A DNA stretch of 36,207 nt, from contig JALOPS010000002.1 in assembly GCA_025453745.1 (NCBI GenBank), positions 1-36,207 of the forward strand, read 5' to 3'. Position numbers and translations under genes: made by a program. A model generated the notes under the pieces. It was not told where the DNA came from. It ran no database searches and saw only the letters and a program-made list of their open reading frames with translations. This DNA is from Gemmatimonadaceae bacterium (GTDB taxonomy: Bacteria > Gemmatimonadota > Gemmatimonadetes > Gemmatimonadales > Gemmatimonadaceae). Below, in pieces: positions 4,768 through 26,733 of the stretch. Position 1 is the first letter of the stretch. The number at the start of each line of letters is the position of its first letter.

Positions 4768-4813
4768 AGTTCCGTTTACCGAATAAACGGAACTACTGGC
4801 GCTCGGTAGTTCC
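4768..4813. promoter_or_regulatory. Three-half-site palindromic operator upstream of Fic gene 1
   Basis: AGTTCCGTTTA (4768-4778) and TAAACGGAACT (4784-4794) are perfect 11-bp inverted arms around 5 bp. The right arm overlaps a second perfect inverted repeat: GGAACTAC (4789-4796) pairs with GTAGTTCC (4806-4813) across 9 bp. So three GTTCC/GGAAC half-sites stand in a row, and two mutually exclusive hairpins are possible. The AT content is unusual for this GC-rich sequence. The remainder of the 318-bp gap 4527-4844 contains no gene; only a perfect 12-bp palindrome (4683-4694) stands out. Confidence 0.65.
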
Positions 4814-4844
4814 ACTTGGCGCCGGTCATGCATGGCGCCCGGCA

Positions 4845-6089
4845 GTGTCCCCGACGCTCCCCTCGAGCGTATCCAATGCCCGGCCGCACCTTCTCGCGCA
4901 TCTGGCCTCGGACCCCACCCGCAACGCCCCGCCGCGTCATCGACGGGCGTGCCGCTACGCCACCTACCTGCCGGACCTGCTCACCACCCTGCCACTTCAG
5001 CTCGACAGCGGACTCGCCGCATTGGTGTCTGAAGCCGAGCGATCGCTCAGGAACTTGAATGACGAGGGAGGACACGCGCGCGCGCCCCTCGCCCGGCTGC
5101 TGCTGCGGACCGAGTCCATCGCGTCATCCAAGCTGGAGGGACTGCAGGCCAGCGTGCGCGACCTCGCCCAGGCGGAAGCGAGCGCGCACTGGGGAATCAC
5201 GCCGGGACCCATCGCGCTTGAAGTGCTCGCAAACATCGAGGCGATGGTGCTGGCGGTGGAGACGACGGCGACGGCCAATCGGTTCGGCGAGATGGAGTTG
5301 CTGTCCATTCATCAACGACTCCTCGAACGCACACCATTGCGGCACATCGCGGATCGACTTCGTACGGGACAGAACTGGATCGGCCGGAACGACGACACAC
5401 CATGCGGCGCCGACTGTGTTCCGCCACCACCCGAGGACCTGCCGCGACTCCTCGTGGACCTCTTTGCGGCGATCAATGACGACGGCCATTCACCACTCGT
5501 GCAGGCAGCGTTGGTGCACGCGCAATTCGAGACGATTCACCCGTTTGATGACGGCAATGGACGCACCGGACGCGCCCTCGTGCATGTGCTGCTCCGGCGC
5601 CGCGGCCTGGCGCCGCGCTTCGTGCCGCCGATCAGCGTCGTCTTTGCCGGCGCACGCGACCAGTACATCTCGGCGCTGACACGTTTCCGGGAAGCAGGAT
5701 CCGACGGTGTGGCGCACTGGCTCGAGCATTTCGCCACGGCGACCCTGCGCGCCGCTCGTCTCGCGCACGACTACGTCCATGCCGTCCGCGCACTCCAGGA
5801 CCGCTGGCGTGTTCGCGTGCGCAATCAGGCACACGTACCGCGGTCGGATGCGGCCGCATGGGCGCTCATCGATCTGCTCCCTGCGCACCCGATGCTCTCT
5901 GCGCAGGTCGCCACGGCCATCACCGAGCGCGCGAAGAGCCGCGTCTACGAGGGGCTGGAACAGCTGGTGACCGCGGGCGTGCTGCTTCCGCTCTCGGCCG
6001 GACAGCGCAACCGGTGGTGGGAAGCAGAGGGGCTGCTCGATCTCATCGCGCGGCTCGAGATCGGGGAGTCTCCGGCAACGGAGGGGTGA
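4845..6089 (+). CDS. Fic-domain protein with C-terminal winged helix (likely AMP-transferase), copy 1
   Basis: A 414-residue Fic enzyme of the COG3177 type. The catalytic loop HPFDDGNGRTGR is complete, with the histidine at residue 232, so nucleotidyl (usually AMP) transfer to a hydroxyl side chain is predicted. The self-inhibitory helix [S/T]xxxE[G/N] is present N-terminal to the core as S94-S-K-L-E98-G, so this is a class II Fic that needs relief of inhibition. The N-terminal YATYLPDLLTTLPLQL segment matches the usual 'YxxFxPxxLP' entry of the family. Residues after ~320 (AWALIDLLPAHPMLSAQVATAI...VYEGLEQLVTAGVLLPL) form a C-terminal winged helix. Start: the frame is open from TTG 4746, but the strong palindrome 4768-4813 lies inside that extension, so GTG 4845 is preferred; no good ribosome-binding site marks either. 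No antitoxin gene is adjacent. The target is unknown; the winged helix may bind the upstream palindrome (inference). Confidence 0.88.
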   Translation: MSPTLPSSVSNARPHLLAHLASDPTRNAPPRHRRACRYATYLPDLLTTLPLQLDSGLAALVSEAERSLRNLNDEGGHARAPLARLLLRTESIASSKLEGLQASVRDLAQAEASAHWGITPGPIALEVLANIEAMVLAVETTATANRFGEMELLSIHQRLLERTPLRHIADRLRTGQNWIGRNDDTPCGADCVPPPPEDLPRLLVDLFAAINDDGHSPLVQAALVHAQFETIHPFDDGNGRTGRALVHVLLRRRGLAPRFVPPISVVFAGARDQYISALTRFREAGSDGVAHWLEHFATATLRAARLAHDYVHAVRALQDRWRVRVRNQAHVPRSDAAAWALIDLLPAHPMLSAQVATAITERAKSRVYEGLEQLVTAGVLLPLSAGQRNRWWEAEGLLDLIARLEIGESPATEG

Positions 6090-6135
6090 CCGCTCGGCCA
6101 CCTCACCGTCCGCGCGCCGGCACCGCCACAGCCAC

Positions 6136-6161
6136 TTAACGCGCCGGGCATCGCGGCGTCT
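6136..6161 (+). promoter_or_regulatory. Candidate ECF-sigma promoter (TTAAC-N16-CGTCT) of the 6221 gene
   Basis: TTAAC at 6136-6140, a 16-nt spacer, CGTCT at 6157-6161, then GCCGGGGAGA. This matches the known ECF layout (AAC-type -35, 16-17 nt, CGTC-type -10). The same elements with the same spacer recur at 7886-7911 ahead of another small exported protein. The coding start lies 60 nt downstream. Confidence 0.6.
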
Positions 6162-6220
6162 GCCGGGGAGAGCGATGCAGCACCTGCCTCGCCGACCGAC
6201 CACTTTCCGGAGTATTCCAC

Positions 6221-6610
6221 ATGCGACCCACGACCCTGCTCTGCGCGGCCCTGGCCGCGCTCTCCCTCGCCGCCACCGCGCAGGCACAGCCGCCGCGCGC
6301 CGGCCGCCCGATCGATCGCGAAGCCGCGCGCGAGCGCATCGCCGAGCGGCGCGCGCAGTGGCAGAACCTCACACCCGAGCAGCGCGAGGCCAAGAAGACG
6401 GAACTCAAGGCGCGCCGCGAAGCGCACCTCGAGAAGCTCGGACCGGCCATGCGCACGTGGGTCGACGCGCGCAACGCGCAGGTGCGGTCGACGGCCGAAC
6501 AGGTGAAGGCGGGCACCCTCACGCGGGAGCAGGCGCGCACCGCGCTGCGCGACTGGATGACCGCCAACCCGCGGCCGGCCAACGCGCGCGCGAACGACGG
6601 CACGCCGTAG
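6221..6610 (+). CDS. Small exported helical protein, Spy/CpxP-like in composition
   Basis: A 129-residue protein starting at an ATG with a GGAG ribosome-binding sequence at 6209-6212. The first ~22 residues are a clear signal peptide (LLCAALAALSLAATAQAQ). The mature part is highly charged and helical: DREAARERIAERRAQWQ, then an LTPEQREAKKTEL stretch, then LTREQARTALRDWM. The 'LTxEQ' start of an Arg/Glu-rich helix recalls LTxxQ-type periplasmic proteins such as Spy and CpxP, which are envelope-stress chaperones, but there is only a loose match and no second canonical motif. It is preceded by a candidate ECF-type promoter, which would suit an envelope-stress function (inference). Its stop codon overlaps the start of the next gene by one base, so the two are translationally coupled. 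Confidence 0.8.
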   Translation: MRPTTLLCAALAALSLAATAQAQPPRAGRPIDREAARERIAERRAQWQNLTPEQREAKKTELKARREAHLEKLGPAMRTWVDARNAQVRSTAEQVKAGTLTREQARTALRDWMTANPRPANARANDGTP

Positions 6611-7875
6611 TGCTGGCGCACGACTCGACGCATCACCGCACCGCGCGACGCTGGCGTCGTGCGGTGTTCGCGTGTGCAGGATTCGCGGCGTGGCCGGTCG
6701 TGACGCACGCCCAGCGCACGCCGCCGGCGACGCTGCGCGATAGCGCCGAGGCACTGCTCGCCGACAGTCTGCTCGATGCGGCACTCGATGGGACGCTGCT
6801 CCTGCCACGTCATCGCGTGAGCGCGCGGGCGACGCTCCGGCAGTACGACTTTGCCGGAGCCCGGGTACAAGAGCAGGCCGCGCCACTCACGTATGCGTTC
6901 GATGGTGCGCGGCTCGCCGTGCGCATCAGCGGCACTCCCGTCGCACTCTCTGCGCCCAGCGGATCATTGAGTGGCGCCTCGCCCGTGCGCGGTCGGATGT
7001 CGCTGCGCGTCGGCGTGGGCGACACCCTCGAGGTGTACGGTCAGACGGCGAGCGCACCGGGTGCGCTCTCGAGCAGCGAGACCGCCGCGCTCGGTGGCAT
7101 CACCACGAGTACGGTCGATCTCGAATCGATCCTCCTCGGCACCACCTCCGCGATGGGTGCGCGCGCCGTCGCCGGGCTGCCCCTCGGTACCACCACACTC
7201 GGCGTGTGGCTGGGCGCGGAAGTACAACCACGTCCGACGGGAGAGACGCCGGTGTTCTGGCGCGGGCGCACGCTCTCGGTCGGTACATCGCTCGCCGGTG
7301 ACCTGGGAGCAGCCCGCATGAGCGCACGCGCCGAATGGTCGCGCAGTTGGGCCGACTCACTCGACGGACGCAATCTCTTTCCCGGAGGCGGCGCCCTCTC
7401 GCTCTCGGCGATGCTCGACGGCCCGATCGGCGACGGCACCACGACCTCCGGGTCGCTCAGCGTGTTCTTCACGCGACCGTTTGCCAACGATCGCGCCGAT
7501 CAGCCCAATCGCCTCACGCCGCAGGGACAGTTCTGGGGCGCAAGCGGCGAGCTGTATGCGTCGCGCGGTCGCGTCGCGTTCATCCCGTCGGTGTCGCTGA
7601 TTCGCGAGTCCAGCACGGTCGCGATCGGCACGCCGCAGCTCCCGGTGCAACTGTCGTCGAGCGCCTGGACCGCGTCGGCCGGCGGCGCGGTGGATCTCTC
7701 GTTGGGGCGCCACCTGTCCGTCACACCCGAAGCGGGCGTCGCCTGGGGGTCGGTGGCGTCCAGCACATCGACCGTCGTGCGCACGCGACGGGGGCGTGCC
7801 GTCACGATTCCGCGAGGCGTCGACGATCCGCTGCGCGGCGCGTGGGTGGGCGTGACGATGACGACGCGCTGGTGA
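6610..7875 (+). CDS. Exported, probably outer-membrane beta-barrel protein
   Basis: A 421-residue protein starting at GTG 6610, whose G is the last base of the preceding TAG stop; this coupling decides the start over much longer open extensions. The N-terminus has a basic n-region (HHRTARRWRR), a hydrophobic core and a THAQ cleavage-like site. The mature region opens with ~40 residues of helical or linker sequence and then consists of alternating Gly/Ser/Thr-rich amphipathic segments (RMSLRVGVGDTLEVYGQT, GTTTLGVWLGAEVQ, GGAVDLSLGRHLSVTPEAGVAWG). It ends in TMTTRW; a C-terminal aromatic residue after alternating residues is the usual BAM recognition signature. I do not recognise a specific family. 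Together with the 6221 gene it forms a two-gene unit behind the candidate ECF promoter. Confidence 0.75.
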   Translation: MLAHDSTHHRTARRWRRAVFACAGFAAWPVVTHAQRTPPATLRDSAEALLADSLLDAALDGTLLLPRHRVSARATLRQYDFAGARVQEQAAPLTYAFDGARLAVRISGTPVALSAPSGSLSGASPVRGRMSLRVGVGDTLEVYGQTASAPGALSSSETAALGGITTSTVDLESILLGTTSAMGARAVAGLPLGTTTLGVWLGAEVQPRPTGETPVFWRGRTLSVGTSLAGDLGAARMSARAEWSRSWADSLDGRNLFPGGGALSLSAMLDGPIGDGTTTSGSLSVFFTRPFANDRADQPNRLTPQGQFWGASGELYASRGRVAFIPSVSLIRESSTVAIGTPQLPVQLSSSAWTASAGGAVDLSLGRHLSVTPEAGVAWGSVASSTSTVVRTRRGRAVTIPRGVDDPLRGAWVGVTMTTRW

Positions 7876-7885
7876 ACGCGCGCGG

Positions 7886-7911
7886 TTAACGCCGGCCGTG
7901 TTGGTGCGTCT
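7886..7911 (+). promoter_or_regulatory. Candidate ECF-sigma promoter (TTAAC-N16-CGTCT) of the 7959 gene
   Basis: TTAAC at 7886-7890, exactly 16 nt, CGTCT at 7907-7911, then GCCCGGGAGA. Both boxes, the spacer and most of the following ten bases match the site at 6136-6161. The next start codon is 48 nt downstream, with an AGGAG at 7948-7952. Confidence 0.6.
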
Positions 7912-7958
7912 GCCCGGGAGACACCGCACCACGTTCCAGCCTTTCACAGGAGTTGTTC

Positions 7959-8369
7959 ATGCGTCACCTCACGACAGCCCGACTTGCCGCACTGACCGCC
8001 CTCGTCTCGCTCGCGTCCACCACCGCGATGGCGCAGCCGGCCACCGGCGCACGCACGGTCGAGCGCTCCACCACCGGTCCGCGCGGCACCACGACCTCGA
8101 CGACCACGGCGCAGCGCACCGAGACCGGGGCGACCAGCACCACCGTGACGACCGGCGCGAAGGGGAAGGTCTACACGACCACGGGCACGATGACCAAGAC
8201 GGAGACGGGTCGCGAGCGGGCGTCGCAGACCACGAACGAGGCGGGCAAGACCGTGCGCGCCGTGAATGGCTCCGTCTCGCGCAGCGAGGGCGTCACCGAG
8301 CGCGCGCGCACGGTGCAGACACCGCGCGGCGAGACGCGCAAGCACACGAGCACCACGCGTCGCCCGTAG
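7959..8369 (+). CDS. Small exported threonine-rich low-complexity protein
   Basis: A 136-residue protein with a strong AGGAG ribosome-binding sequence at 7948-7952 placed 6 nt before ATG 7959; a TTG at 7953 would overlap it and is not preferred. The signal peptide is clear (LTALVSLASTTAMAQ). The mature part is dominated by Thr with Gly, Arg, Lys and Ser, in short phrases such as GPRGTTTSTTTAQRTETG and VYTTTGTMTKTETGRER, with no cysteine and few hydrophobics. It may be disordered or form a repetitive beta structure outside the cell; I recognise no family. It has its own candidate ECF-type promoter matching that of the 6221 gene, so the two probably belong to one regulon (inference). Confidence 0.75.
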   Translation: MRHLTTARLAALTALVSLASTTAMAQPATGARTVERSTTGPRGTTTSTTTAQRTETGATSTTVTTGAKGKVYTTTGTMTKTETGRERASQTTNEAGKTVRAVNGSVSRSEGVTERARTVQTPRGETRKHTSTTRRP

Positions 8370-8379
8370 TCGTACCGAT

Positions 8380-8830
8380 CCGCTCGCGGTGCGCCGTCAG
8401 CACATCGCGAGCGGCGAGCACGCGCGCCGTGTCCGATACCTCGGCAGAGACCAGGCACGCGCGCGGTGGAAGCGAACGGCATGCCGACGCTGCCGGCGTT
8501 CACGATGCGGCGTGAGCCAACCGTGCGATCGTACGCCATGTGCGTGTGGCCGCACACGACGGTGTCGGCGGCGCTGGACGCAAAGAGCGTCGCCATGCGA
8601 TCATCGGTCGTCACGCGCGTACAGATGCTGGTATCGCTGTCGGGCGTGGCGTGGCAGAACTCCACCGCGCCCAGGCCGTCGAGCATCAGTGTGCGGGTCA
8701 TCGGCCACGCGGCGATGGCCTCGCGATGTGCCGCGGAGAGCCGATCAGCCCCCCACTGCATCACCGGGAGGTACGCGGCCGGCAGACGGGACGGACCATG
8801 CGTTGGACGGCAGGTGTGACGTCGTCCGGA
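8380..8830 (-). pseudogene. Decayed metallophosphoesterase (YfcE/MJ0936-like), N-terminal half missing
   Basis: On the minus strand one frame reads LPAAYLPVMQWGADRLSAAH, then LDGLGAVEFCHATP, then ADTVVCGHTHMAYDRTVG and IVNAGSVGMPF. These are the C-terminal metal-binding blocks (FCHATP, CGHTH, NAGSVGMP) of the small calcineurin-like phosphoesterases, which hydrolyse phosphodiesters or phosphomonoesters. The N-terminal blocks that supply the first metal ligands (DxH, GDxx, GNxD) are absent: the region that should hold them is the neighbouring CPBP gene. After GMPFAST the frame loses coding character while the +1 frame continues with a plausible tail (CLVSAEVSDTARVLAARDVL), so a frameshift is likely near 8465. 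No start with a ribosome-binding site is visible. I read this as a truncated, frameshifted remnant filling the 478-bp gap; sequencing error could explain the frameshift but not the missing half. Confidence 0.6.
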
Positions 8831-8847
8831 ACACGGGTGCCTGAACG

Positions 8848-9564
8848 CTAACGCACCGACCCGAGCAGAAAGGCGGTGTTGCCGAGTCCGTGCGCCACCA
8901 TTGGCAGCCACACGGTGCCGCTGATCGCACGCAACCATCCGTACGCAACACCACCGATCAACGGAAAGAGCCCCGACATCACGTCGAACGTCAGTCGGCC
9001 CTGGTGCACACCCACCATGTGCCAGAGACCAAACGCCACGGCACACGTCGCAATCACGGTCCACGGCGTTGGGGAATCGGGCCCCTCTCGTTCGCCCCAT
9101 GCCGAGAGCAGCAACGCGGGAGCGATACCGCGAAACGCCAGCTCTTCGGTGATGCCGGGCATCGTGAGCTGAAAGAGCACTGTCTCGAGCGATGGTGCCG
9201 GTGGCGTGTAGACGAAGCCCAGGCCTGTGCTCGCGGCGGTGAGGACAGCGATCGTCCACCAGGCGGTGCGTGCGCGATGGGGAGGCCACGTCAGGCCCAC
9301 CGCGTGTCGCGAAAAGGAGAACAGCCGGATGGCTGCCAGACAGGCGATGAGGCTGCACGCCTTGCCCAGCCAGTTCCAGTCGCCACCGAGGGTGCGGACC
9401 GCGCCCGGGACGAACGGGAGCGTGGTGGTGAGATCGACGACGGCGAGAAAGCCGGCGCACGCGAGCGAGCCCACGAGCGTCAAGCGCGTGTCGACCGCCT
9501 TGAGCAGCAGCGCGAGGATGAGAGTCGCGACGGAGAGGAACGCGGTGACGAGCAGGAAGTCCAT
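8848..9564 (-). CDS. CPBP-family intramembrane metalloprotease
   Basis: A 238-residue membrane protein starting at ATG 9564 (MDFLLVTAFLSVATLILALLL), which begins directly with a transmembrane helix; the longer open frame upstream is Arg-rich and non-coding in character. It has about 6-7 hydrophobic segments and all three CPBP (Abi/CAAX protease) motifs: EExxxR as E140-E-L-A-F-R145, FxxxH as FGLWH, and HxxxN as HGLGN near the C-terminus. These residues coordinate the catalytic metal in the membrane. Known members cleave prenylated proteins or peptides, or act in bacteriocin self-immunity; the substrate here is unknown. The gene lies 240 bp downstream of the aminotransferase on the same strand with nothing recognisable between, and immediately upstream of the metallophosphoesterase remnant. 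Confidence 0.88.
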   Translation of the reverse strand: MDFLLVTAFLSVATLILALLLKAVDTRLTLVGSLACAGFLAVVDLTTTLPFVPGAVRTLGGDWNWLGKACSLIACLAAIRLFSFSRHAVGLTWPPHRARTAWWTIAVLTAASTGLGFVYTPPAPSLETVLFQLTMPGITEELAFRGIAPALLLSAWGEREGPDSPTPWTVIATCAVAFGLWHMVGVHQGRLTFDVMSGLFPLIGGVAYGWLRAISGTVWLPMVAHGLGNTAFLLGSVR

Positions 9565-9803
9565 GCAGGCTCTGTGAGGTGACGCGTGACGGCGCGCGAA
9601 CACCTGACGGCGTGCGCGAACGATCGGTTTCCTCGCGACCGGCGTGGGCGCAGCGCCTCGATCCCCGCCATGCACCGTATCCCGCGCTGCACTGTTGGCG
9701 ATCCCGCTGAGCCACGGCTGATCACATCGTCGCCGGCGGTAACTCGGGCTCGCGCCCGATCGCGGCGAGCGGGATCTGCGTGGTCGTGCGCGACGCGCCG
9801 GAC

Positions 9804-10979
9804 CTAGGCGCCCCCTCGCGCCGCGACCCACGCGTGCAACCGCGCAATGGCCTCGTCGAGCACCTCGTCCCGCTTCGCGACGGCAAAGCGCAACAGCGTG
9901 CGCGGTGGATCGGCACCCTGATAGAAGCTCGAACACGGGATGGTCGCCACGCGCGCTTCCTGGGTGAGCACGCGCGCCGCCGTCACGTCGTCCATGCCCA
10001 GGCCGAGCGGTGCGATATCACCGACCACGAAGTAGCTCCCGCGTGAGGGGAGCACGCCAAACCCGCACGCGGCGAGCCCGGTCGCGATGCGCGCGCGCTT
10101 TGCGGCCAGCGCGTCACGCATGCCGACGAAGTACGCATCGTCTTTCTGCAGCCCATGGGCGATGGCACGCTGCAGGTTGGGTGCAATACTGAAAATGAGG
10201 TTCTGGTGCGCCTTGCCGACCGTCGTGAAGAGCGCAGCGGTCGTCGACACGTAGCCGATCTTCCATCCCGTCACACTGAACGTCTTCCCCGCACTGCCGA
10301 CGCGCAGCGTGCGCTCGTGCATCCCCGGCATGGTCATCAGCGGGATATGCGGCGTCTCGGCGTCAGTGAGGTGCTCGTAGACTTCGTCGCAAATCGCATA
10401 GAGATCGTGCGCCACGCAGATGCGCGCCAACGCGGCGACTTCCTCGCGCGTGAGGACCGCGCCGGTCGGATTCATCGGCGAGTTGACGAGGATCGCCTTG
10501 GTCCGGGGTGTGATCGCCGCCTCGAGCGCGGCGATGTCGAGCCGCCAGTCGGGCGGGTGCAGGCGCACGATCTTCGGCACCGCACCGATGAGCTGGATGA
10601 TCGGCAGATAGATGTCGAAGAGCGGCTCGAAGAGCACACACTCGTCGCCAGGGTCGAGCAATGCCATCAGGCACGCCGTGATCCCTTCGGTCGCACCGCC
10701 CGTGATGAGCACATGCGCCGGGTCGATGTCGAGTCCGTACCAGCGACGATTGGCGTCGGCCACCGCGCGACGCAGTTCGGGGACGCCGTCACGCGGCGCG
10801 TACTGGTTGCGCCCGTCGCGCAGGGCAGCGGCGGCGACATCGATGACATCGGGTGGCCCGTCACCGTCGGGAAAGCCCTGGCCGAGGTTGATCGCGTCGT
10901 GCTCGGCGGCCAGGGCGGACATCACGGTGAAGATCGTGGTGCCAGCCGAGGCGAGGAGCGTGTTGTGGGGACGGGGCAT
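9804..10979 (-). CDS. PLP-dependent class I aminotransferase (kynurenine/methionine aminotransferase-like)
   Basis: A 391-residue fold-type I aminotransferase. ATG 10979 gives the expected ~390-residue length; an in-frame ATG at 11022-11024 would overlap the divergent start. Visible family blocks: INLGQGFPDGDGP near the N-terminus, NQYAPRDGVPELRRAV, LITGGATEGI (phosphate-binding turn), NSPMNPTGAVLT (Asn contacting PLP), ICDEVYEHL (Asp to the pyridine nitrogen), and SAGKTFSVTGWKIGY with the Schiff-base lysine at residue 232. The FPDGDGP / NQYAP signature fits the kynurenine aminotransferase / methionine aminotransferase (YbdL) branch more than aspartate aminotransferase. It would transfer amino groups in the cytoplasm between an aromatic or sulfur amino acid and a 2-oxo acid; substrate preference cannot be read here. 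It is divergent from the GH16 gene with only 43 bp between starts. Confidence 0.9.
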   Translation of the reverse strand: MPRPHNTLLASAGTTIFTVMSALAAEHDAINLGQGFPDGDGPPDVIDVAAAALRDGRNQYAPRDGVPELRRAVADANRRWYGLDIDPAHVLITGGATEGITACLMALLDPGDECVLFEPLFDIYLPIIQLIGAVPKIVRLHPPDWRLDIAALEAAITPRTKAILVNSPMNPTGAVLTREEVAALARICVAHDLYAICDEVYEHLTDAETPHIPLMTMPGMHERTLRVGSAGKTFSVTGWKIGYVSTTAALFTTVGKAHQNLIFSIAPNLQRAIAHGLQKDDAYFVGMRDALAAKRARIATGLAACGFGVLPSRGSYFVVGDIAPLGLGMDDVTAARVLTQEARVATIPCSSFYQGADPPRTLLRFAVAKRDEVLDEAIARLHAWVAARGGA

Positions 10980-11022
10980 GCCGGAGTCGCGGAGGGGGCG
11001 AACGCTCTGCAAGTTACCCGTC

Positions 11023-11955
11023 ATGCGCGCTGCTGGTGATCGGTGGTGGCTCGGGCTCGCGGCACTCGCGGCGATCGTCGCGTACCACGGTGAGGCGACC
11101 GACCGCGCGCGCGTGCACGCGGCGGTGGCGGCGCGCGCAGCCCCGAACTCAGCCGGGCAACCCGCCACGTCTGGGGCGCGCGCTTCGGACTCCACGTGGC
11201 GCGTCGTCTGGGCTGACGAGTTCGACGGCGCCGCCGGCGATCCGCCGAATCCGCGCACCTGGGTGGCCGACACCGGTGACGGCTGCGCGCGCGGCATTTG
11301 CGGCTGGGGCAACCAGGAGCGGCAGAGCTACACCGCGTCGCGCGAGAACGCCGCGCTCACGGGCACGGGGCAGCTCGCGATCACCGCGCGCGTGGCACCG
11401 GCCGGGCTGCGCTGTTGGTACGGCCCGTGTCGCTACACCTCGGCCAAGTTCATCACCAAGGGCACGGTCGAAGTCGGATATGGTCGCGTGGCGATTCGTG
11501 CGAAGGTGCCGTTGGGTCAGGGCGTGTGGCCAGCGTTCTGGATGCTGGGTGCGGGGTGGCCGACAACGTCGTGGCCGCAGTGCGGCGAGCTCGATGTGAT
11601 GGAGTACGGTGGCGGCAAGCCGACGATCAACTCCTCGTCCGTGCACGGGCCGGGATACTCGGGGCAGACGCCGTTCACCAATCGATACGCGCGCGCGGCA
11701 GGCACGTTTGCCGACGGCTACCATGTGTATGCGGTGGAGCGCGATGCGCGGGCGATCCGGTTTCTCGTCGATGACTCGGTGCACTACACGGCCACGCGCG
11801 AGGCGATCGAGCAGAAGGGCGCATGGGTGTTCGATGGGCCGATGTTTCTGCTGCTGAACCTGGCGATCGGTGGGATCTTCGACGGGGATCCGGCGAGCGA
11901 TGCCGTGTTGCCCGCGACGCTGCTGGTGGATTGGGTGCGGGTGTACACGCGCTAA
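11023..11955 (+). CDS. Exported GH16 glycoside hydrolase (laminarinase-type beta-glucanase)
   Basis: A 310-residue protein with an N-terminal hydrophobic segment (WWLGLAALAAIVAY) that serves as signal or anchor, a short linker, then a GH16 catalytic domain from about residue 65 (WRVVWADEFDG). The active-site motif ExDxxE is intact as E189-L-D-V-M-E194, with the first Glu the nucleophile and the last the acid/base. Other family blocks: GWGNQERQSYT, TKGTVEVGYGRVAIRAKVPLG, GVWPAFWMLG, SSVHGPGYSG, FHxY-equivalent YHVYAVE, and the closing FDGPMFLLLNLAIGG and LLVDWVRVY. The pattern fits endo-1,3-beta-glucanases (laminarinases), acting on extracellular beta-glucans. It shares a short divergent region with the aminotransferase, with no functional link apparent. 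Confidence 0.93.
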   Translation: MRAAGDRWWLGLAALAAIVAYHGEATDRARVHAAVAARAAPNSAGQPATSGARASDSTWRVVWADEFDGAAGDPPNPRTWVADTGDGCARGICGWGNQERQSYTASRENAALTGTGQLAITARVAPAGLRCWYGPCRYTSAKFITKGTVEVGYGRVAIRAKVPLGQGVWPAFWMLGAGWPTTSWPQCGELDVMEYGGGKPTINSSSVHGPGYSGQTPFTNRYARAAGTFADGYHVYAVERDARAIRFLVDDSVHYTATREAIEQKGAWVFDGPMFLLLNLAIGGIFDGDPASDAVLPATLLVDWVRVYTR

Positions 11956-11993
11956 CGGCGGCGAAGGGGGCTTCGCGCGCTCGGCGAACGACC

Positions 11994-12333
11994 GTGTGTT
12001 GAGCGGAGCGCGGCGTGTGTTGAGCGGAGCCCGCGCCGTGTGTTGAGCGGAGCGCGGCGCAGCCGCGCGGAGTCGAAACACCGCCGGACGCGCACGAAGT
12101 GCGCGTTCCGGGCAGTGGTCGCGGCACACGAACCACCGCGAAGGGCGCTCCGCGCGCTCAGCGCACGACGGTGTGTTGAGCGGAGCGCGGCGCAGCCGCG
12201 CGGAGTCGAAACACCGCCGGACGCGCACGAAGTGCGCGTTCCGGGCAGTGGTGGCGGTGCACGAACCACCGCGAAGGGCGCTCCGCGCCCTCGCGCGATC
12301 CTTCGACTTCGGCGCTGCGCGCCTTCGCTCAGG
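11994..12333. repeat. Intergenic repeat cluster: two 133-bp tandem units, two partial copies and an inverted diverged end
   Basis: GTGTGTTGAGCGGAGC occurs at 11994, 12015, 12038 and 12171. The last two head near-identical units (12038-12170 and 12171-~12303) that share the phrase GAGCGGAGCGCGGCGCAGCC, the ending GGAGTCGAAACACCGCCGG, and a perfect GCGCAC-GAA-GTGCGC hairpin; they differ at only a few positions around 12116-12121 and at the 3' end. At 12301-12332 CTTCGACTTCGGCGCTGCGC...CTTCGCTCAGG is a diverged inverted copy of the GAGCGGAGC...GAGTCGAA core. No real gene lies in 11956-12342. The GAGCGG...GTCGAA type is a common intergenic repeat class in environmental GC-rich genomes. Confidence 0.85.
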
Positions 12334-12342
12334 AAACGACCG

Positions 12343-12867
12343 TCACGGCACCGTGCGGCAGTACGCGCCGCCAGTACACCGCTCGGGCACGTACGTCTCG
12401 CTCTCCACATACCACTCGCCGCTGATCTCTCGCCACTTGGCGAAGTAATGCCCCACGAGCGCCACCCGACCATCGGTGTCCGTCCACGATCCCGTCCATC
12501 GCCCGCGTTCACTCGCCATGCGCCACGGCCCGTACACGAACACCGCCTCGGGCGTGCGCCGATAGATCACATCCGGTCGCGTGCGAAACTGCTCCGCAAA
12601 GCGCATCGCATTCGCATCGCGACCGCTGATGACCGTGGAATTCGAGCTCACCACGACAACCTGCGGCGCAAAGATCGTAGCCAGGCCTGCGGTGTCGTGC
12701 GCCGCAATCGCGCGATTCGACGCGGCTCGCCGTGCGCCGATGCGGGCCGCGTGGTCGCCACGCCCCTGTGCAGCGAGCGGCACGGCGCCCAACGCGGCCA
12801 TCACAAGCACGGTCGCTACCACCCGCGCGCGCCCCCCTTGCTCGCGCCACCGCACCGACCCCCTCAC
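12343..12867 (-). CDS. Exported SnoaL/DUF4440-like (NTF2-fold) protein
   Basis: A 174-residue protein starting at GTG 12867, whose last bases overlap the TGA of the upstream DUF5916 gene (GTGA), implying translational coupling; GTG 12855 is an alternative. The signal peptide is clear: RWREQGGRAR, hydrophobic VVATVLVMAALGAVPL, cleavage at AAQ. The mature domain (ARRAASNRAIAAHDTAGLATIFAPQVVVVSSNSTVISGRDANA...FVYGPWRMASERGRWTGSW...GHYFAKWREISGEWYVESETYV) follows the NTF2-fold DUF4440/SnoaL pattern: helix with HD, strand, 'G' turn, and a late W..G.W strand pair. These are small ligand-binding or enzymatic cone domains; no catalytic set can be named. A short CTGGAYC tail with two cysteines may form a disulphide. 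It is probably co-expressed with the DUF5916 protein. Confidence 0.82.
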   Translation of the reverse strand: MRGSVRWREQGGRARVVATVLVMAALGAVPLAAQGRGDHAARIGARRAASNRAIAAHDTAGLATIFAPQVVVVSSNSTVISGRDANAMRFAEQFRTRPDVIYRRTPEAVFVYGPWRMASERGRWTGSWTDTDGRVALVGHYFAKWREISGEWYVESETYVPERCTGGAYCRTVP

Positions 12868-16442: not shown

Positions 16443-16443
16443 G

Positions 16444-18000: not shown

Positions 18001-18064
18001 CGGTTCGGTCTCCGACGAGAGGGCACACCGTCGCCGGATCGTGCATTCGTGCGCAACTTCCGGC

Positions 18065-19948: not shown

Positions 19949-21267
19949 TCCGCGCGTCCGCGTGCGCCGCGCGTGCGCCACCAGTGGAGCGCTGCACACA
20001 CAATCACGACGCTGACCGACGCGGCCTCGCGCGCGCTCGTCTGGAGCAACACCCCGGCAATCAGCACACAGCCGAGCCCACCGACCACGGTGCCTGCCGG
20101 CACGCGCAGCAGCGCGCCGCGCACGCCGTCCGTGAACCGTCCGGCGCGCTCGCGCTGCCGAAAGCGCACCATCGCCGCACACACCACGCCGTACGCCAGC
20201 AACCGCGCCACGGCCGAGAGGCTCACGTTCTGCAGCAGCGATGCGGACAGTGCGAGCATCCACGAGAGCGCGGCAAAGAGCGCGATCGAGCGCACCGGCG
20301 TGCCGAACGTGGAGTGGCGACGCGCGAGGGCAGCGGGAAGCATGCCGTCGTGCGCCATCGCCACCGTCATGCGCGGCATGTTGAGCATCGACGCCGCCAT
20401 CCACCCCGTCACGGATGCCACCACGAGCAGCGTTGCACCGATCGCGCCGGGTGTTCCCGCCATCGTGCGCGCGGAGGAAGCGAGCGGACGTGGCGTCGCT
20501 CCCGGATCGGCCACCGTGGCGAGCACGGCCACCTGCACCAGCAGGTAGATGATGACAACGACGATGAAGCCCGTGATCAGCGCGAACGGTGCATCGCGTC
20601 GCGGGTCGCGCGCTTCACCGAGCGGAATCATCGCCCCTTCGAAGCCGCCGTACGCAAATGCAAGCAGCAGCATCGCCGAGAACCATCCACCGGGCGTGGC
20701 ATCGCTCGGCGGTACGAGCGTGACCGCAGCGCCACGTGTGAGCCACCAGCAGCCGGCAAGTCCGAGCAGGAGCAGCGCGCCGACCTTGATCATCGCAAAG
20801 AGTGAACTCGTGCGCGCTCCTCCACGCGTGCCACGCACATTCACGAACGCCAGCGGCACGATGAACAGCGTCGTGAGCGTGAGGGCGCCCGCGCGCGACG
20901 CGCTCCACGGCCAGAACTCCCCGAGCGCGGTGGTGAAGAGATTGGCCTGTGCCGCCGCGGAGAGCGTGCGGGCGAAGTACACGAGCCACGCGACTTCGAT
21001 GCCAATGAGCGGTCCGAACGCCGCGTGCGCGTATCGATAGGGCCCACCACCGCTCTCGAACCGTGAGGACACTTCGGCGAACGCCGCCACGCACAGCGCA
21101 ATGATGGCGGCACCGGCGATCCACGCCGGCACGGCGCCCCATCCCAGGCGTCCGCCGATGGTGCCCGGCAGGACGAAGACGCCGCTGCCGATGATGCTGT
21201 TGAGCACGAGCGCGACGAGGGCGCTGCGGCCGAGGATGCGGGGTGCGGCGGGGGCGGGGGAGGTCAC
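19909..21267 (-). CDS. APC-family amino acid permease
   Basis: A 452-residue inner-membrane transporter with about 12 hydrophobic segments. The first helix contains the APC hallmark IIGSGVFVLPG (unwound helix 1 binding the substrate backbone), and helix 2-3 carries the family's 'AEVSSRFESGGGPYRYAHAAFGP' sequence; FAYGGFEGAMIPLGEARDPRRDAPFAL is the helix 6 region that binds the amino group. It likely imports or exchanges an amino acid or amine; specificity is not readable. GTG 21267 is preferred (RILGRSALVALVLNS follows); GTG 21300 also fits. The last 40 bp overlap antisense to the 3' end of the spermidine-dehydrogenase-like gene, so transcription of the two genes collides there. A polyamine or amine substrate would fit that neighbour, but this is inference. 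Confidence 0.9.
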   Translation of the reverse strand: MTSPAPAAPRILGRSALVALVLNSIIGSGVFVLPGTIGGRLGWGAVPAWIAGAAIIALCVAAFAEVSSRFESGGGPYRYAHAAFGPLIGIEVAWLVYFARTLSAAAQANLFTTALGEFWPWSASRAGALTLTTLFIVPLAFVNVRGTRGGARTSSLFAMIKVGALLLLGLAGCWWLTRGAAVTLVPPSDATPGGWFSAMLLLAFAYGGFEGAMIPLGEARDPRRDAPFALITGFIVVVIIYLLVQVAVLATVADPGATPRPLASSARTMAGTPGAIGATLLVVASVTGWMAASMLNMPRMTVAMAHDGMLPAALARRHSTFGTPVRSIALFAALSWMLALSASLLQNVSLSAVARLLAYGVVCAAMVRFRQRERAGRFTDGVRGALLRVPAGTVVGGLGCVLIAGVLLQTSAREAASVSVVIVCAALHWWRTRGARGRADQADSSSSTARRA

Positions 21268-21324
21268 GCGGCAACCATGGTCGACGACGGCGCGTCGCAC
21301 CAGTGGCGTCGCATGGGAGTGGAC

Positions 21325-23331
21325 CTAGATCTCGGGGATGCCGAGGTCGCGCAGATAGCCGTAGGTCTGATCATAGAGCTGCGGCGATCGCGTACGATCC
21401 GTGGCCTCTCCGGGGGGCACAAAGACGACCATGCCCTGTCGCGCTCGGGTGAGCAGCACACGGTAGGCGTTCAGCAGATAGCGCTGCCGCTCGGGCTTGT
21501 GCATGCGCTCCCAGCGATCGCCGCGAAACGCATGCGGGTGCCACCGCCCGTCCGCGAGGCGCAGATCGGCGTCCCACGTGACGCACGCCCAATCCACCTC
21601 CAATCCCTGCACTTGAAACTCCGTTGCCGCATCCTCCAGGTACCAGGACGCGCGAGTGTCGTCGGGTGGCCCGAGAAACCACTGCACCGGATCGACCGAC
21701 ACGCGCACGTCGATGGCGTGCGGCTTGAGCCGCATCGCCTGCGATGACGCGATCAGTCCGTAGCGCTCGCTGCCGCGTGCGTGTGCGCGCACCCAGCGCT
21801 TCGCAGTGTCGAGGGAGCGGGTGATGGCCAGCGGGTATCGCTCGAGGACCGCGCGAAGATGCACACGCGCCGCATCGTGTTCCAGCGCGAGCACGGCGCG
21901 CACGAATTCGGCAACATGCTGCGCACGAAAGGACCGCATCGACGTCGCGAGATGGAGCGACGGGTCCGGATGACAACGCGCATCGTCGGCGAGTGCCTGC
22001 AGCTCGTCCTGCGCGGCGTACTCCGCGCCAGCCAGATGCGGCGAGAGATGCACCTGCCAGTGCGGGAAACGCTCGCGCATCGCCGTGAGCCACGCACCAA
22101 TGCCGGCCTCGCCGGTGTGGATCTCCTGCCCACCGCCCACCAGGCAGATCACCACGGCCCAGTCGGCGTGGCGATCCATGTAGGAGATGAGGAATTCCGG
22201 CTCGGACTCGTTGAAGTCCGGGCGACCTTTGCGCTGTCGCATGAACAGCGATGTCTTCTCGCGCGTCCACGCGCGTTGGGCCTCGTCGAAGATCACGACA
22301 CGATCGTGCGGTGGCGCGTCGCTCCGACGCAGTCCCTCGTCGCGGAAGTGATGCACGTTCTGGATGAACTGCTTGATGGGCTGCGCGACATCCCCCTTGC
22401 GTCGCTTGATCCCCGCCGCGCCGAGGCGCGAGAGCTCATCGCGCGTCAACGCCTCCCGCAGCACGGCAACGAGCGGTCCGTTGCCGGAGAGAAAGACGGC
22501 ATGCCCCGCGGCGGCGTGATCGCGGCGCGCGGTCGCGATGTCCAGACCAACCAACGTCTTGCCCGCGCCGGGAACACCGGTGACGAAGACGATCGCCTTC
22601 TCGTGTGCGTCGCGCGCGCGGTTGACGAGCTGCTGCACACGCCGCGCCGTGACCGCGAGGTTGGTCGCACCGGCCTCGCTCCGGGTGATGTCGTGCACCG
22701 TGTGTCGCGCATAGAGCGCACGCGCCGCCTGCACGATCGTCGGCGTGGGCTGGTACCCCGCACGTCCCCACGCATCTCCATCAATCGGGGCACCGCCCGC
22801 GCGGGAAGCGGCGGCACGTACCGCGTCGCCAAGCTGTGCCACCGTCACCGCGCGCGGTGGGCGAACGCCGTCTGCCGCCGGGGGCGGCCAGTCGGGTTCG
22901 CCGTCGACCGCACCGGTCGCCACCACCAGCGGGAAGATCGGGGCGTGATGGCTTGCCTGATGGAAATTGCGCAGATCGAGCGCGTAGTCCCACACCTGGT
23001 CGCGATGTGCCGGTGTGACGCGCATCTCCCCCACCTTGAACTCGATGGGGACGATGGCACCACCCGCGATCACCACGGCATCGATCCGCGAGCCCAGCCG
23101 CGGTACATCGAATTCGAAGAAGAGGTGGCCATCCAGCGCCACCAGTGCGTCGCGCAACAGGTCGATCGTCGTGCGCCACGCATCCCGCTGCTGCAACTCG
23201 ACGTCGAACGCGCTCTCCTTGACCAACACGCCGAGCGCCGCATCGCCGTCCGTCGCGAGGAAGCGCGAAATGGATGCCGCGAGGTAGGCGGACGGCCGCG
23301 TGCGGGATCCCTCGATGCGTGGCAAAGACAC
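21325..23331 (-). CDS. PD-(D/E)XK nuclease-like plus DUF2075 helicase-type ATPase
   Basis: A 668-residue two-part protein. GTG 23331 is chosen because the family's conserved N-terminus (AYLAASISRFLA...ALGVL..........QRDAWRTTIDLLRDAL) begins ~15 residues later. Residues ~70-115 look like a PD-(D/E)XK nuclease core: GSRID84AVVIAGGAIVPIE97FK99, followed by QVWDYALDLRNFH. The ATPase follows: Walker A GVPGAGKT at 252-259, Walker B VVIFDEAQ at D349-E350, a GGGQEIHTGEAG loop, and helicase motif VI-like AYRVLLTRARQGMVVFVP near the end, with FQVQGLEVDW ahead of it. DUF2075 (Schlafen group 3-related) ATPases act on nucleic acids; members are often found in phage-defence loci. Here there is no other defence gene nearby except possibly the Fic proteins, so that role is only a possibility. 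The gene ends 58 bp upstream of the permease start. Confidence 0.88.
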   Translation of the reverse strand: MSLPRIEGSRTRPSAYLAASISRFLATDGDAALGVLVKESAFDVELQQRDAWRTTIDLLRDALVALDGHLFFEFDVPRLGSRIDAVVIAGGAIVPIEFKVGEMRVTPAHRDQVWDYALDLRNFHQASHHAPIFPLVVATGAVDGEPDWPPPAADGVRPPRAVTVAQLGDAVRAAASRAGGAPIDGDAWGRAGYQPTPTIVQAARALYARHTVHDITRSEAGATNLAVTARRVQQLVNRARDAHEKAIVFVTGVPGAGKTLVGLDIATARRDHAAAGHAVFLSGNGPLVAVLREALTRDELSRLGAAGIKRRKGDVAQPIKQFIQNVHHFRDEGLRRSDAPPHDRVVIFDEAQRAWTREKTSLFMRQRKGRPDFNESEPEFLISYMDRHADWAVVICLVGGGQEIHTGEAGIGAWLTAMRERFPHWQVHLSPHLAGAEYAAQDELQALADDARCHPDPSLHLATSMRSFRAQHVAEFVRAVLALEHDAARVHLRAVLERYPLAITRSLDTAKRWVRAHARGSERYGLIASSQAMRLKPHAIDVRVSVDPVQWFLGPPDDTRASWYLEDAATEFQVQGLEVDWACVTWDADLRLADGRWHPHAFRGDRWERMHKPERQRYLLNAYRVLLTRARQGMVVFVPPGEATDRTRSPQLYDQTYGYLRDLGIPEI

Positions 23332-23406
23332 CCCGGCAGCTTGCGACCGCCGTGCCGTCCGCACCAGGGGCTCGGTGCCATCCGCTCCGCCCGCTACACT
23401 CCGTGC

Positions 23407-23895
23407 ATGCACCCGCGCGCCACCACGCTGATCGCACAGCTCGACCTCACGCCGCACCCCGAGGGCGGCCACTACCGCGAACTCTATCGCTCACCCGTCA
23501 TGCTCGACCCGGGCGACGGCCGATCGCCCCGCTCGGCGCTCACCGGCATCTATTTCCTGCTGGCCGCCGGTGAGTACAGCGCGTGGCACCGCGTGCGATC
23601 CGACGAGGTCTGGCATGTGTATGAGGGCGATGGCCTCGAACTGCTCATGGCCAGTCCGGATGGCCGGCGGGTGCAGCGGGTCGCCCTCGGCGCCGTCGGC
23701 GCGCAATCCGGCGGCCCGCAGCAACTCGTACCGGCGGGGTGGTGGCAGGCCGCGCGCCCGCTGGGCGGGTACGTCCTCGCCGGATGCAACGTCGCGCCCG
23801 GCTTCGATTTCGCCGACTTCTCCTTTCTTCGCGACGTGCCGGACATGGCCGCCATCATCACGCACCATTCGCCGCACCTCGCCAGCCTGCTCTGA
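23407..23895 (+). CDS. Cupin, DUF985 family
   Basis: A 162-residue protein matching the DUF985 cupin family (YML079w-like) over its full length. It opens with LIAQLDLTPHPEGGHYRELYRS, the family signature, then GIYFLLAAGEYSAWHRVRSDEVWHVYEGDGLELLM, which supplies the first cupin motif, then QQLVPAGWWQAARPLGGYVLAGCNVAPGFDFADFSF for the second. The known structures are double-stranded beta-helix dimers with a ligand pocket; the physiological ligand is unknown. It is cytoplasmic (no signal peptide). The start is ATG 23407, 75 bp from the divergent nuclease-helicase start. The next gene follows after 2 bp, so it forms a two-gene unit with the exported carboxylesterase, although no joint function is evident. 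Confidence 0.92.
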   Translation: MHPRATTLIAQLDLTPHPEGGHYRELYRSPVMLDPGDGRSPRSALTGIYFLLAAGEYSAWHRVRSDEVWHVYEGDGLELLMASPDGRRVQRVALGAVGAQSGGPQQLVPAGWWQAARPLGGYVLAGCNVAPGFDFADFSFLRDVPDMAAIITHHSPHLASLL

Positions 23896-23897
23896 CT

Positions 23898-25556
23898 GTG
23901 TCCACACGCATTCGCAGGACGCACGTCCCCGTATCGTTGACGTGCACGCTGCTGTTGCTGCGCGCACCCGCACTCGCCGCGCAGCCGACTCCCGTCGCGC
24001 ATCCTGCGGTCACCGTCGCCGGTGAACGGCTGATCGGTCGCGCCGGCGTTGCCGCTCCTGGCGGCGTGTTTCTCGGTGTGCCGTATGCTGAACCGCCGGT
24101 GGGCGACCGTCGCTGGACCCCGCCGGTCCCCTACCGCGCGCGGCACAGCGAGCGACAGGCCGATCGCTTTGGTCCTGCCTGTCCGCAGGGGCGCGGCATC
24201 GACGACTTCCTCAAGCGACTAGCGGACGCATTCGATGGCACCGCGCGACTCGTACCGTGGCCCACGGAGACGAGCGAGGACTGTCTCACGCTCAACATCT
24301 GGACACCAACGCTGACACCTGGCGCACGTCGACCGGTGATGGTGTGGATTCACGGTGGCTCGAACGTCACCGGCGGCACCTCGCAAGCGATCTACGACGG
24401 CGCCAGACTCGCGCAGCGCGGCGTTGTGGTGGTCTCGCTCAACTATCGCCTGGGTGTGCTCGGCTTCTTTGCGCACCCGGCGCTCACGGCGGCATCACCG
24501 CTCAAGACGAGCGGCAACTACGGCCTGCTCGATATCGTCGAAGCGCTGCGTTGGGTTCAGGCCAACGTCGCGTCATTCGGAGGCGATCCGGGTCAGGTGA
24601 CCGTCTTCGGCGAGTCCGCCGGCGCGATGAACATCGCGCACCTCCTCGGCTCACCACTCGCGCGCGGTCTCTTTCAGCGCGCCATCTTGCAGAGCGGTGC
24701 ACCGGTGGCCAAAGTGCAGTCGCGTGCGGAGGCGGAGTCGGTCGGTGTGACGATTGCCACCGCGCTGGGCGCTACTGATGGTGACGCGCTCACGCGGTTG
24801 CGCTCTGCTACGTCTGATCAACTGCTTGCTGCGTATGCAAAGGCCACACCGGCCGGTGGCAACGCACTCGCCGACGCGGCGATCGATCACTGGGTGATCC
24901 CCGACGCGACGGGACGCCGCTTCGCCACGGGTGGGGCCACGACCGTACCACTGCTCATCGGCAGCACTGCGGATGAGCTGACGAGTCTGACCATGCTGCT
25001 GCCGACGTTCGAGCGCACGCGCGGCGGATATCGCAGCCTCACCGACAGCCTCTTCGGTCGTGTGGGCGGCTTCGTCATTCGTCGACAGTATCGTGCGCCG
25101 AGCGATACGGCCGTGGAGTCGGCCGTCGTGCGGCTGGGCACGGATGTCGTGTTCACCTGTCCATCGCGCTTCATCGCCGAGCGGGTGGGCGCGGCGCAAC
25201 AGCCGGTGTATCGCTACCTGTTCACGCGTGTGGTGCCCGGCGGTGAAGAGCTGCGCGCGTATCACTCGATCGAGCTCGGCTACATGTTCGGCAACGTGGA
25301 GCCGTGGCTACCGCCGCTGCCGCCGACCGACCTGGCGCTGTCGGAGACGATGATGCGCTACTGGGTGAACTTCGCGGTCACGGGGAATCCGAATGGGGCC
25401 GGTCTTCCCGAGTGGCCTACCGCGGGCGCGGACGGCGACCGGTACCTCGAGCTGGGCGATCCGATCCGTGTGGGCAGCGGGCGGGGGAAGAAGTTCTGCG
25501 ATCTCTACGAGAAGGCGTTGCCGAAGCAGTGGCCCAGCGCGGACGAGGAGAGGTAG
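23898..25556 (+). CDS. Exported type B carboxylesterase
   Basis: A 552-residue alpha/beta hydrolase of the carboxylesterase type B (COesterase) family. GTG 23898 lies 2 bp after the preceding stop and opens a signal peptide (VSLTCTLLLLRAPALAAQ). Family blocks in order: FLGVPYAEPPVGDRRW, SEDCLTLNIWTP, the oxyanion hole WIHGGSN, VVVVSLNYRLGVLGF, NYGLLDIVEALRWVQANVASFGGDPGQVTVFGESAG with the nucleophile Ser240, a GSTADEL acidic residue, and the histidine in AYHSIELGYMFGN. Both partners of the triad are therefore visible. It should hydrolyse carboxylic esters in the periplasm or outside; the natural ester is unknown. A cysteine pair consistent with the family's first disulphide (ACPQG, DCLTLN) is present. 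The second Fic gene follows 77 bp later behind its own operator. Confidence 0.93.
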   Translation: MSTRIRRTHVPVSLTCTLLLLRAPALAAQPTPVAHPAVTVAGERLIGRAGVAAPGGVFLGVPYAEPPVGDRRWTPPVPYRARHSERQADRFGPACPQGRGIDDFLKRLADAFDGTARLVPWPTETSEDCLTLNIWTPTLTPGARRPVMVWIHGGSNVTGGTSQAIYDGARLAQRGVVVVSLNYRLGVLGFFAHPALTAASPLKTSGNYGLLDIVEALRWVQANVASFGGDPGQVTVFGESAGAMNIAHLLGSPLARGLFQRAILQSGAPVAKVQSRAEAESVGVTIATALGATDGDALTRLRSATSDQLLAAYAKATPAGGNALADAAIDHWVIPDATGRRFATGGATTVPLLIGSTADELTSLTMLLPTFERTRGGYRSLTDSLFGRVGGFVIRRQYRAPSDTAVESAVVRLGTDVVFTCPSRFIAERVGAAQQPVYRYLFTRVVPGGEELRAYHSIELGYMFGNVEPWLPPLPPTDLALSETMMRYWVNFAVTGNPNGAGLPEWPTAGADGDRYLELGDPIRVGSGRGKKFCDLYEKALPKQWPSADEER

Positions 25557-25586
25557 CGGGCGCGGGACATGCACAGGAATACAGGG

Positions 25587-25621
25587 AAATGTGTACACGA
25601 GCGCAGAACGTGTATACATTT
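25587..25621. promoter_or_regulatory. Double-palindrome operator upstream of Fic gene 2
   Basis: AAATGTGTACACG (25587-25599) and CGTGTATACATTT (25609-25621) form an inverted repeat with 12 of 13 positions matching around a 9-bp spacer. Each arm itself centres on a perfect 8-bp palindrome: GTGTACAC (25591-25598) and TGTATACA (25611-25618). Their centres are exactly 20 bp apart, two helical turns, so two dimers could bind the same DNA face. The AT-rich site lies 12 bp ahead of the Fic start codon. Confidence 0.7.
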
Positions 25622-25632
25622 GCGCATTTTCT

Positions 25633-26733
25633 ATGCATATGGCCATGACATCCCCGTTCCCTCCCCTCGAGCAGATCGATCCGTCACGATTCGACACTCC
25701 GAGTGTGCTCAAGCGACTCAGTGGAGCCAGCCGGCACTTGGCCGAACTCAAGGGGGTGGTGACGTCGATTCCCAATGAAGCGATGCTGATCAGCACGCTC
25801 ACGCTTCAGGAAGCGAAGGACAGCTCGGCGGTCGAGAACATCATCACCACGCACGACGAGCTGTTTCGCGACGATGCCTCGCCGTCGAGCCAAGTGTCCC
25901 CGGCCGGCAAAGAAGTACTTCGATACCGACAAGCGCTTCGTGTGGGGTGGGAGCAGGTTCGTACCACCGGGCTCATCACCAACAACCACCTGCAGCAGAT
26001 CCAGTCCGTCCTCGAGCTCAATCGCGCGGGGTTCCGCCGTGTGCCCGGCACTGCACTTCGAGAAGAAGGAACCGGCCGCGTCGTGTTCACCCCTCCACAG
26101 GACCACGCATCGATCGTTGCGGCCATGGGTGACCTGGAGCGATTCCTGAACGCCTCTCCAGCGTACCCGGTCGATGCGCTGATCCGCATGGCGCTGGCCC
26201 ACCATCGCTTCGAGACGATCCACCCGTTCTACGATGGCAACGGGCGCACCGGTCGCATTCTCAACGTGCTCTATCTGGTGAAGGAGGGGCTTCTCGATCT
26301 GCCCGTCCTCTACATGAGTCGGCACATCGTGCGTACCAAGAACCGATACTACGCGCTCCTGCAGCTCGTACGCGAAGAAGACCGGTGGGAAGAATGGGTT
26401 GACTACATCCTGGAGGCGGTAGAGGTGACCGCCCGGGAAGGGGTGACCGTGGTGACCGCCATCCGCACTGCGCTCTTCGAGGTGAAGCAACAGATCCGTG
26501 AGCGCCATTCGTTCTACAGCCAGGATCTGATCAACAACCTCTTCTCGCATCCGTACACGAAGGTGCAGTTCGTGCAGGAAGATCTCGGCGTCTCCCGCGT
26601 CACGGCCACCAAGTATCTGAATGCACTGGTCGCCGACGGAATCCTGTCCGTGCAACGGGTTGGCCGCGACAACTACTACTTGAACGTGCGCCTCGTCCAC
26701 ATTCTCACGGGTGACCGCACGCAGTCCGTGTGA
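25633..26733 (+). CDS. Fic-domain protein with C-terminal winged helix (likely AMP-transferase), copy 2
   Basis: A 366-residue Fic enzyme, better preserved than the first copy. The catalytic loop is HPFYDGNGRTGR with His197, preceded by RFETI, and the inhibitory helix is S64-S-A-V-E68-N, again class II. The N-terminal domain (FDTPSVLKRLSGASRHLAELKGVVTSIPN) and AHHRFETIHPF core match COG3177-type proteins. Residues ~300-355 (YTKVQFVQEDLGVSRVTATKYLNALVADGILSVQRVGRDNYYLN) form a canonical winged helix with a clear recognition helix (SRVTATKYLNAL). In-frame ATGs occur at 25633, 25639 and 25645; none has a clear ribosome-binding site. Expected activity is adenylylation of Ser/Thr/Tyr on a cell protein, possibly itself. 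The strong palindromes 12 bp upstream make DNA binding by its own winged helix, and so autoregulation, a reasonable inference. No separate antitoxin is present. Confidence 0.92.
   Translation: MHMAMTSPFPPLEQIDPSRFDTPSVLKRLSGASRHLAELKGVVTSIPNEAMLISTLTLQEAKDSSAVENIITTHDELFRDDASPSSQVSPAGKEVLRYRQALRVGWEQVRTTGLITNNHLQQIQSVLELNRAGFRRVPGTALREEGTGRVVFTPPQDHASIVAAMGDLERFLNASPAYPVDALIRMALAHHRFETIHPFYDGNGRTGRILNVLYLVKEGLLDLPVLYMSRHIVRTKNRYYALLQLVREEDRWEEWVDYILEAVEVTAREGVTVVTAIRTALFEVKQQIRERHSFYSQDLINNLFSHPYTKVQFVQEDLGVSRVTATKYLNALVADGILSVQRVGRDNYYLNVRLVHILTGDRTQSV

Follow-up and report, generated by a model that had tools for sequence, protein, structure and literature searches.

Two Fic proteins of a Gemmatimonadaceae bacterium have conserved candidate operators that covary with their recognition helices

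The analysed window spans an entire contig (C56), 36,207 nucleotides long, from a draft genome (4.7 Mb, 521 contigs) of a Gemmatimonadaceae bacterium, in which a genome search found five Fic-domain matches. Two Fic genes of the window were analysed, both on the plus strand. Fic1 (4845–6089, 414 amino acids) has the domain order Fic_N–Fic–winged helix and is related to the Fic protein 7CB8 of M. marinum, and Fic2 (25633–26733, 366 amino acids) has the order Fic_N–Fic–SoFic-like_C and falls into the SoFic family. The start of Fic1 (GTG, 4845) is uncertain, as residues 1–22 have a pLDDT below 50 and alignments to the closest relatives begin near residue 21. By sequence and alignment, both proteins have the intact loop HPFx[D/E]GN[G/K]R of class II Fic proteins, namely HPFDDGNGRTGR in Fic1 (residues 232–243, 5538–5573) and HPFYDGNGRTGR in Fic2 (residues 197–208, 26221–26256), and, ahead of the Fic core, an inhibitory helix of the form [S/T]xxxE[G/N], which aligns as SSKLEG in Fic1 (residues 94–99, 5124–5141) and SSAVEN in Fic2 (residues 64–69, 25822–25839). 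Relatives keep the inhibitory motif, and S94, S95, and E98 of Fic1 are invariant in a 33-row alignment.

The C-terminal winged helix of Fic1 was predicted by AlphaFold (pLDDT 87) and consists of helices 337–347, 353–360, and 364–376 and wing strands 380–382 and 392–394; the last helix is the recognition helix KSRVYEGLEQLVT (5934–5972). Pfam matched the Fic_N and Fic domains of Fic1 but no HTH domain, and the SoFic-like C-terminal domain PF21248 gave no match up to an E-value of 0.1. Foldseek placed Fic1 with both M. marinum Fic 7CB8 and SoFic, and 7CB8, which was solved with CDP, is the closest solved structure (phmmer 6.5e-50; Foldseek E 2.2e-21, TM 0.81/0.84). We assign Fic1 to a separate 7CB8-like branch, because PF21248 does not match it though the structure gives the SoFic fold. 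In Fic2 the winged helix is the Pfam domain SoFic-like_C (PF21248; 3.6e-20, 72.4 bits, cut-off 27), with a recognition helix that, by comparison with relatives, begins as SRVTATKYLNAL from residue 321 (26593–26628). Fic2 matched the PADLOC SoFic model (2e-110), has 3EQX/9TC4 as relatives in the PDB, and stayed below the NCBIfam SoFic equivalog cut-off (344 vs 550 bits), so that from its sequence it is classed as a SoFic relative and not as an equivalog by NCBI's rule. The intact loop, inhibitory helix, and C-terminal winged helix of the original prediction were thus recovered in both proteins.

Neither gene is adjoined by an antitoxin gene, again as predicted, at least locally. A convergent amidohydrolase gene at 26745 lies 11 bp beyond the stop of Fic2, which leaves no room for a small gene of the AS1 type found downstream of EcSofic, and none of the listed window ORFs of at least 80 amino acids falls wholly within the short stretch that separates Fic1 from the overlapping ORFs at 6175 and beyond. 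A gene for a Schlafen group 3 helicase-domain protein (21325–23472, minus strand, Pfam E 4e-78) lies about 2 kb from Fic2, a possible defence association.

Upstream of Fic1 lies the palindrome AGTTCCGTTTA-ccgaa-TAAACGGAACT (4768–4794, 11 of 11 pairs matched), with an additional GTAGTTCC at 4806–4813, and upstream of Fic2 the palindrome AAATGTGTACACG-n9-CGTGTATACATTT (25587–25621, 12 of 13 pairs). Against shuffled upstream regions these had p-values of at most 0.005 and of 0.013, respectively. Both palindromes are present where they had been predicted, but what had been taken for a single palindrome at each gene is a set of three half-sites, and the Fic2 palindrome is the outward-facing pair of such an array. 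At Fic1 the half-sites are 4769–4774 (plus strand, the GTTCCG core of AGTTCCGTTTA), its inward partner 4788–4793 (minus strand, 19 bp start to start), and 4809–4814 (plus strand, GTTCCA), which is 21 bp from the second half-site, an everted spacing common in the family. At Fic2 they are 25591–25596 (GTACAC on the minus strand, assigned by spacing and relatives), 25612–25617 (plus strand, GTATAC), and 25631–25636 (minus strand, GCATAG), the last being the inward partner of the second across an n13 gap and overlapping the start codon at 25633. The start-to-start distances are thus 19 and then 21 bp at Fic1, and 21 and then 19 bp at Fic2. All three Fic2 half-sites depart from the group consensus GTATAG, and one TGYATAG match was counted at the third. 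In a pattern search allowing up to three mismatches, neither full site recurs elsewhere in the genome. No sigma-70-like promoter was recognised at either operator, although the promoters of this organism may differ from that model.

The operators are conserved upstream of related genes. We scanned 122 non-redundant Fic1 homologues, drawn from this phylum and others, many of them in genomes titled Gemmatimonadota or Gemmatimonadaceae. By complementarity only, with no sequence prior, 74 had significant sites; with a weak inner-TA prior, sites were found in 94 at p ≤ 0.05 and in 76 at p ≤ 0.01, compared to 21 and 10, respectively, among 200 control gene starts in the same scan, and 28 homologues lacked a significant site. 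Non-conservation, which the original prediction had named as a refuting outcome, is thereby contradicted. The half-site of the Fic1 family is TTAGTTCAGTTTA, read toward a centre of 5 bases, and sites usually lie just upstream of the gene, some tens of bases at most from the first in-frame start codon. At least three half-sites were present in 55 of the 94 promoters, and 52 everted gaps measured 23–24 bp from 8-base core start to core start; the corresponding inward spacing, 17, follows largely from how a site was defined and is not independent evidence. Read with six-base cores, the spacings are 19 (inward) and 21–22 (everted). One homologue (L169) is on a contig titled Klebsiella pneumoniae MAG, which is probably misnamed, and its operator TAAGCGCAGG matches those on contigs with Deltaproteobacteria titles.

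Sequence variation among these operators follows the recognition helix. Background-corrected mutual information was calculated over 94 homologues (effective number 78) for all pairings of a protein column with an operator position, and the four strongest of about 5,000 pairs all involve residues 364–366, the first three of the recognition helix in the AlphaFold model: R366–d8 (z 18.6), S365–d9 (11.7), K364–d12 (6.7), and S365–d10 (5.9). Columns outside the winged helix reached z-scores of at most about 4.8. The resulting code table is nearly categorical: at residue 366, arginine goes with C at d8 in 22/22 half-sites, alanine with A in 117/126, glutamine with G in 18/18, and serine with G in 10/10, and at residue 365 proline and glutamine go with A at d9 in 58/58 and 16/16, these counts not being independent events because half-sites were counted per arm. 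It is well supported that the operator core can be predicted from a few recognition-helix residues. Since the sites are conserved, change with the recognition helix, and are unique in the genome as full sites, the proposal that each Fic protein has its own operator is strongly supported.

SoFic loci were taken from relatives within the phylum, plasmids of Pseudomonadota, and viral contigs, with the listed Salmonella plasmid matches set aside. Their sites share the geometry GTATAG-n13-CTATAC or GTATAG-n14-CTATAC. Complementarity alone was weak here (14 of 47 upstream regions significant), and we therefore counted motifs with swapped motifs as the test; the SoFic case rests on these counts, for which helix classes and motifs were set after inspection of the sequences. 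The 18 loci with a [ST]RxTA helix had 31 TGYATAG (0.8 expected) and 6 TGTCGA (1.8 expected), and the 19 loci with an xRQ[TSA]A helix had 67 TGTCGA (2.9 expected) and 0 TGYATAG (0.6 expected). Two SRPTA loci had TGTAAAG four times, with 0.2 expected for the SRxTA group taken together. The proline rule transfers to a third, distant group (about 30% identical, on viral contigs), where 44 loci with proline at the 365-equivalent had 92 AAAGG (27.9 expected) and alanine types had 9 (7.4 expected); near-duplicates were removed by exact match only, so that independent cases in this viral set are fewer than counted. In five loci (L206, L227, L241, L252, and L264) an asparagine at the 365-equivalent goes with upstream TTTCAT (12 vs 1.9 expected), which in this group of about 30% identity may be a further code entry. 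Among the plasmid loci, an Azotobacter chroococcum plasmid (L185, 1–5062) has a SoFic-type gene flanked by genes for a class I SAM-dependent DNA methyltransferase and for a restriction subunit S, and a second Fic gene comes directly after. On plasmids of Methylosinus and Agrobacterium (L189, L190), the gene that follows SoFic overlaps it, is of the recombinase family, and lies next to repC.

Several characterised systems resemble the two window genes. One is CccR of Yersinia pseudotuberculosis, a Fic-HTH protein that is both toxin and autorepressor; EMSA, footprint, ITC, and reporter experiments established that it represses its own promoter through palindromes, in a manner that needs dimerisation (PMC9755527). 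Like CccR, which is a dimer with proven negative autoregulation, Fic1 and Fic2 combine a Fic domain with a C-terminal HTH (here predicted by AlphaFold and Pfam) and have a palindromic operator at their own promoter that is conserved in relatives. The CccR operator, however, is AGATAATCAT-N26-ATGATAATCT, with 10-bp boxes, instead of the n13 inward gap and 19/21-bp array of the window genes, and CccR differs further in being a secreted type VI effector; the accessible portion of the paper reports neither a recognition code nor family-wide conservation. The anti-phage SoFic (Sofic) family, known from Shewanella SO_4266 and EcSofic of E. coli H397 (PMC12249575, PMC3667792), includes Fic2 by its SoFic-like_C domain, PADLOC match, and 3EQX/9TC4 relatedness, and DNA binding by SoFic was undemonstrated as of 2023 (PMC10628234). 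EcSofic has its AS1 small gene downstream, whereas Fic2 is without an AS1-like gene. CbFic2 of Coxiella burnetii shares the architecture of the window proteins, being a class II Fic protein with a C-terminal winged HTH that binds DNA, but it was tested with random DNA and has no known specific operator (PMC10628234). For 7CB8, the literature searched yielded no report of an operator or of DNA binding. Autoregulated expression of a Fic-fold toxin is also known from Phd-Doc, a conceptual parallel drawn in 2009 (PMC2686095), but there the antitoxin binds DNA, while here toxin, inhibitor helix, and predicted DNA-binding domain are in one protein.

Based on these results, the product of each gene is very likely an AMP-transferase under auto-inhibition and probably doubles as a sequence-specific repressor acting on its own promoter. 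Autorepression by the enzyme is the best reading because the full operators are unique in the genome and lie at their own genes, and because CccR is a proven case; as the initial recognition-helix residues track the letters of the adjoining site across hundreds of relatives, the enzymes very probably regulate their own genes. We infer a dimer as the reading unit; its C-terminal winged helices would read two half-sites (GTxxxx-n13-xxxxAC), with the first recognition-helix residues (364, 365, and 366 in Fic1) specifying the variable operator bases. Further half-sites at alternating distances of 19 and 21 bp would allow several dimers to line up in a repeat of about 40 bp over promoter and start codon, and such an array may keep a potentially toxic enzyme scarce. 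Because each protein would read a different operator, neighbouring Fic modules could coexist without cross-regulation.

A different emphasis would be that these sites do bind Fic but serve chiefly to control the enzyme: the operator would hold the Fic protein, or activate it, as an AMPylase, with transcriptional repression secondary, a role already suggested for CbFic2. DNA, and the dimerisation that it induces, stimulate (de)AMPylation by CbFic2 (PMC10628234), which lends this some weight, but we consider it unlikely: genome-unique sites just upstream of the gene are the layout of an autorepressor, and repression by CccR was shown experimentally, its regulatory and toxic functions being separable by mutation. 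Moreover, the Fic homologue L060 (1501–2484), which has a degenerate catalytic loop (APFERAPGRVGR) and an SRPTA helix, keeps an upstream GGAAAG-n13-CTTTCT that fits the proline rule, and a code-compatible site despite such a loop argues that DNA binding is no by-product of catalysis. Two other Fic homologues, L030 and L010, also have altered catalytic loops (HPFADGSGRAGR and HPFDGGNGRTGR); DNA binding may outlive catalysis, as both L060 and L030 keep palindromic operators.

Shared ancestry, by which related proteins simply have related promoters, is a highly improbable cause of the coupling. Donors with less than 60% Fic identity that share residues 365/366 predicted the four-base core more accurately than did the relative closest in the Fic domain (0.79 vs 0.55, Wilcoxon p 2.5e-9), and the partial correlation net of similarity in Fic and the rest of the winged helix was 0.50, which 0 of 999 permutations reached. 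In path-disjoint contrasts on a tree built from the Fic domain alone, with all branches of the best tree, alanine at 366 and d8 switched together in the same direction in 16 of 16 cases (sign p 3e-5), and proline or glutamine at 365 and d9 did so in 11 of 15, with none opposite. In favour of ancestry, only two to three contrasts survive on strongly supported branches; these are same-direction or undiffering with none opposite and are not significant alone. Against ancestry, the rules also recur in SoFic and in the third group. The covariation of palindromes and recognition helix that had been proposed as a check was therefore found, both in the top four couplings and in the co-switching contrasts. 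That the palindromes are instead bound by an unrelated regulator, or act as RNA hairpins or terminators with a positional link to Fic only, is barely credible and already contradicted by the covariation: inverted repeats are common upstream of genes, and 10% of the control starts also reach that threshold, but coupling is with the first three recognition-helix residues and far weaker with other columns, and no terminator-like site or Rfam family was found at either operator.

The view that these proteins are enzyme-repressors rather than toxins is not supported, as toxic proteins of abortive infection occur in the SoFic family (PMC12249575) and CccR combines the roles of toxin and autorepressor (PMC9755527); because EcSofic is toxic, the two roles probably coexist. 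The predicted coupling of ATP or AMPylation to DNA binding is plausible, as the position of the C-terminal domain differs between apo EcSofic and ATP-bound SoFic and CbFic2 is stimulated by DNA. We tentatively suggest, as something that may well prove wrong, that such genes are one-protein modules resembling toxin–antitoxin systems, diversified by the code (364–366 vs d12, d10/d9, d8) and thereby insulated, in which loss of the array would release a burst of toxin; the ATP state, AMPylation, or competing DNA during phage attack could be the trigger.

Fusions of Fic and HTH domains were noted in 2009, when the HTH was suggested to regulate fic (PMC2686095), and self-repression by a Fic-HTH protein is already known from one case, CccR. 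In the open literature that was searched, we found no recognition code, conserved operator array, or SoFic operator; priority for the code and the array is not certain. The analysis provides specific candidate operators across a large set of Fic proteins, SoFic relatives included, with the operator core predicted from few residues, and the control of a Fic toxin that has no antitoxin becomes a directly testable question.
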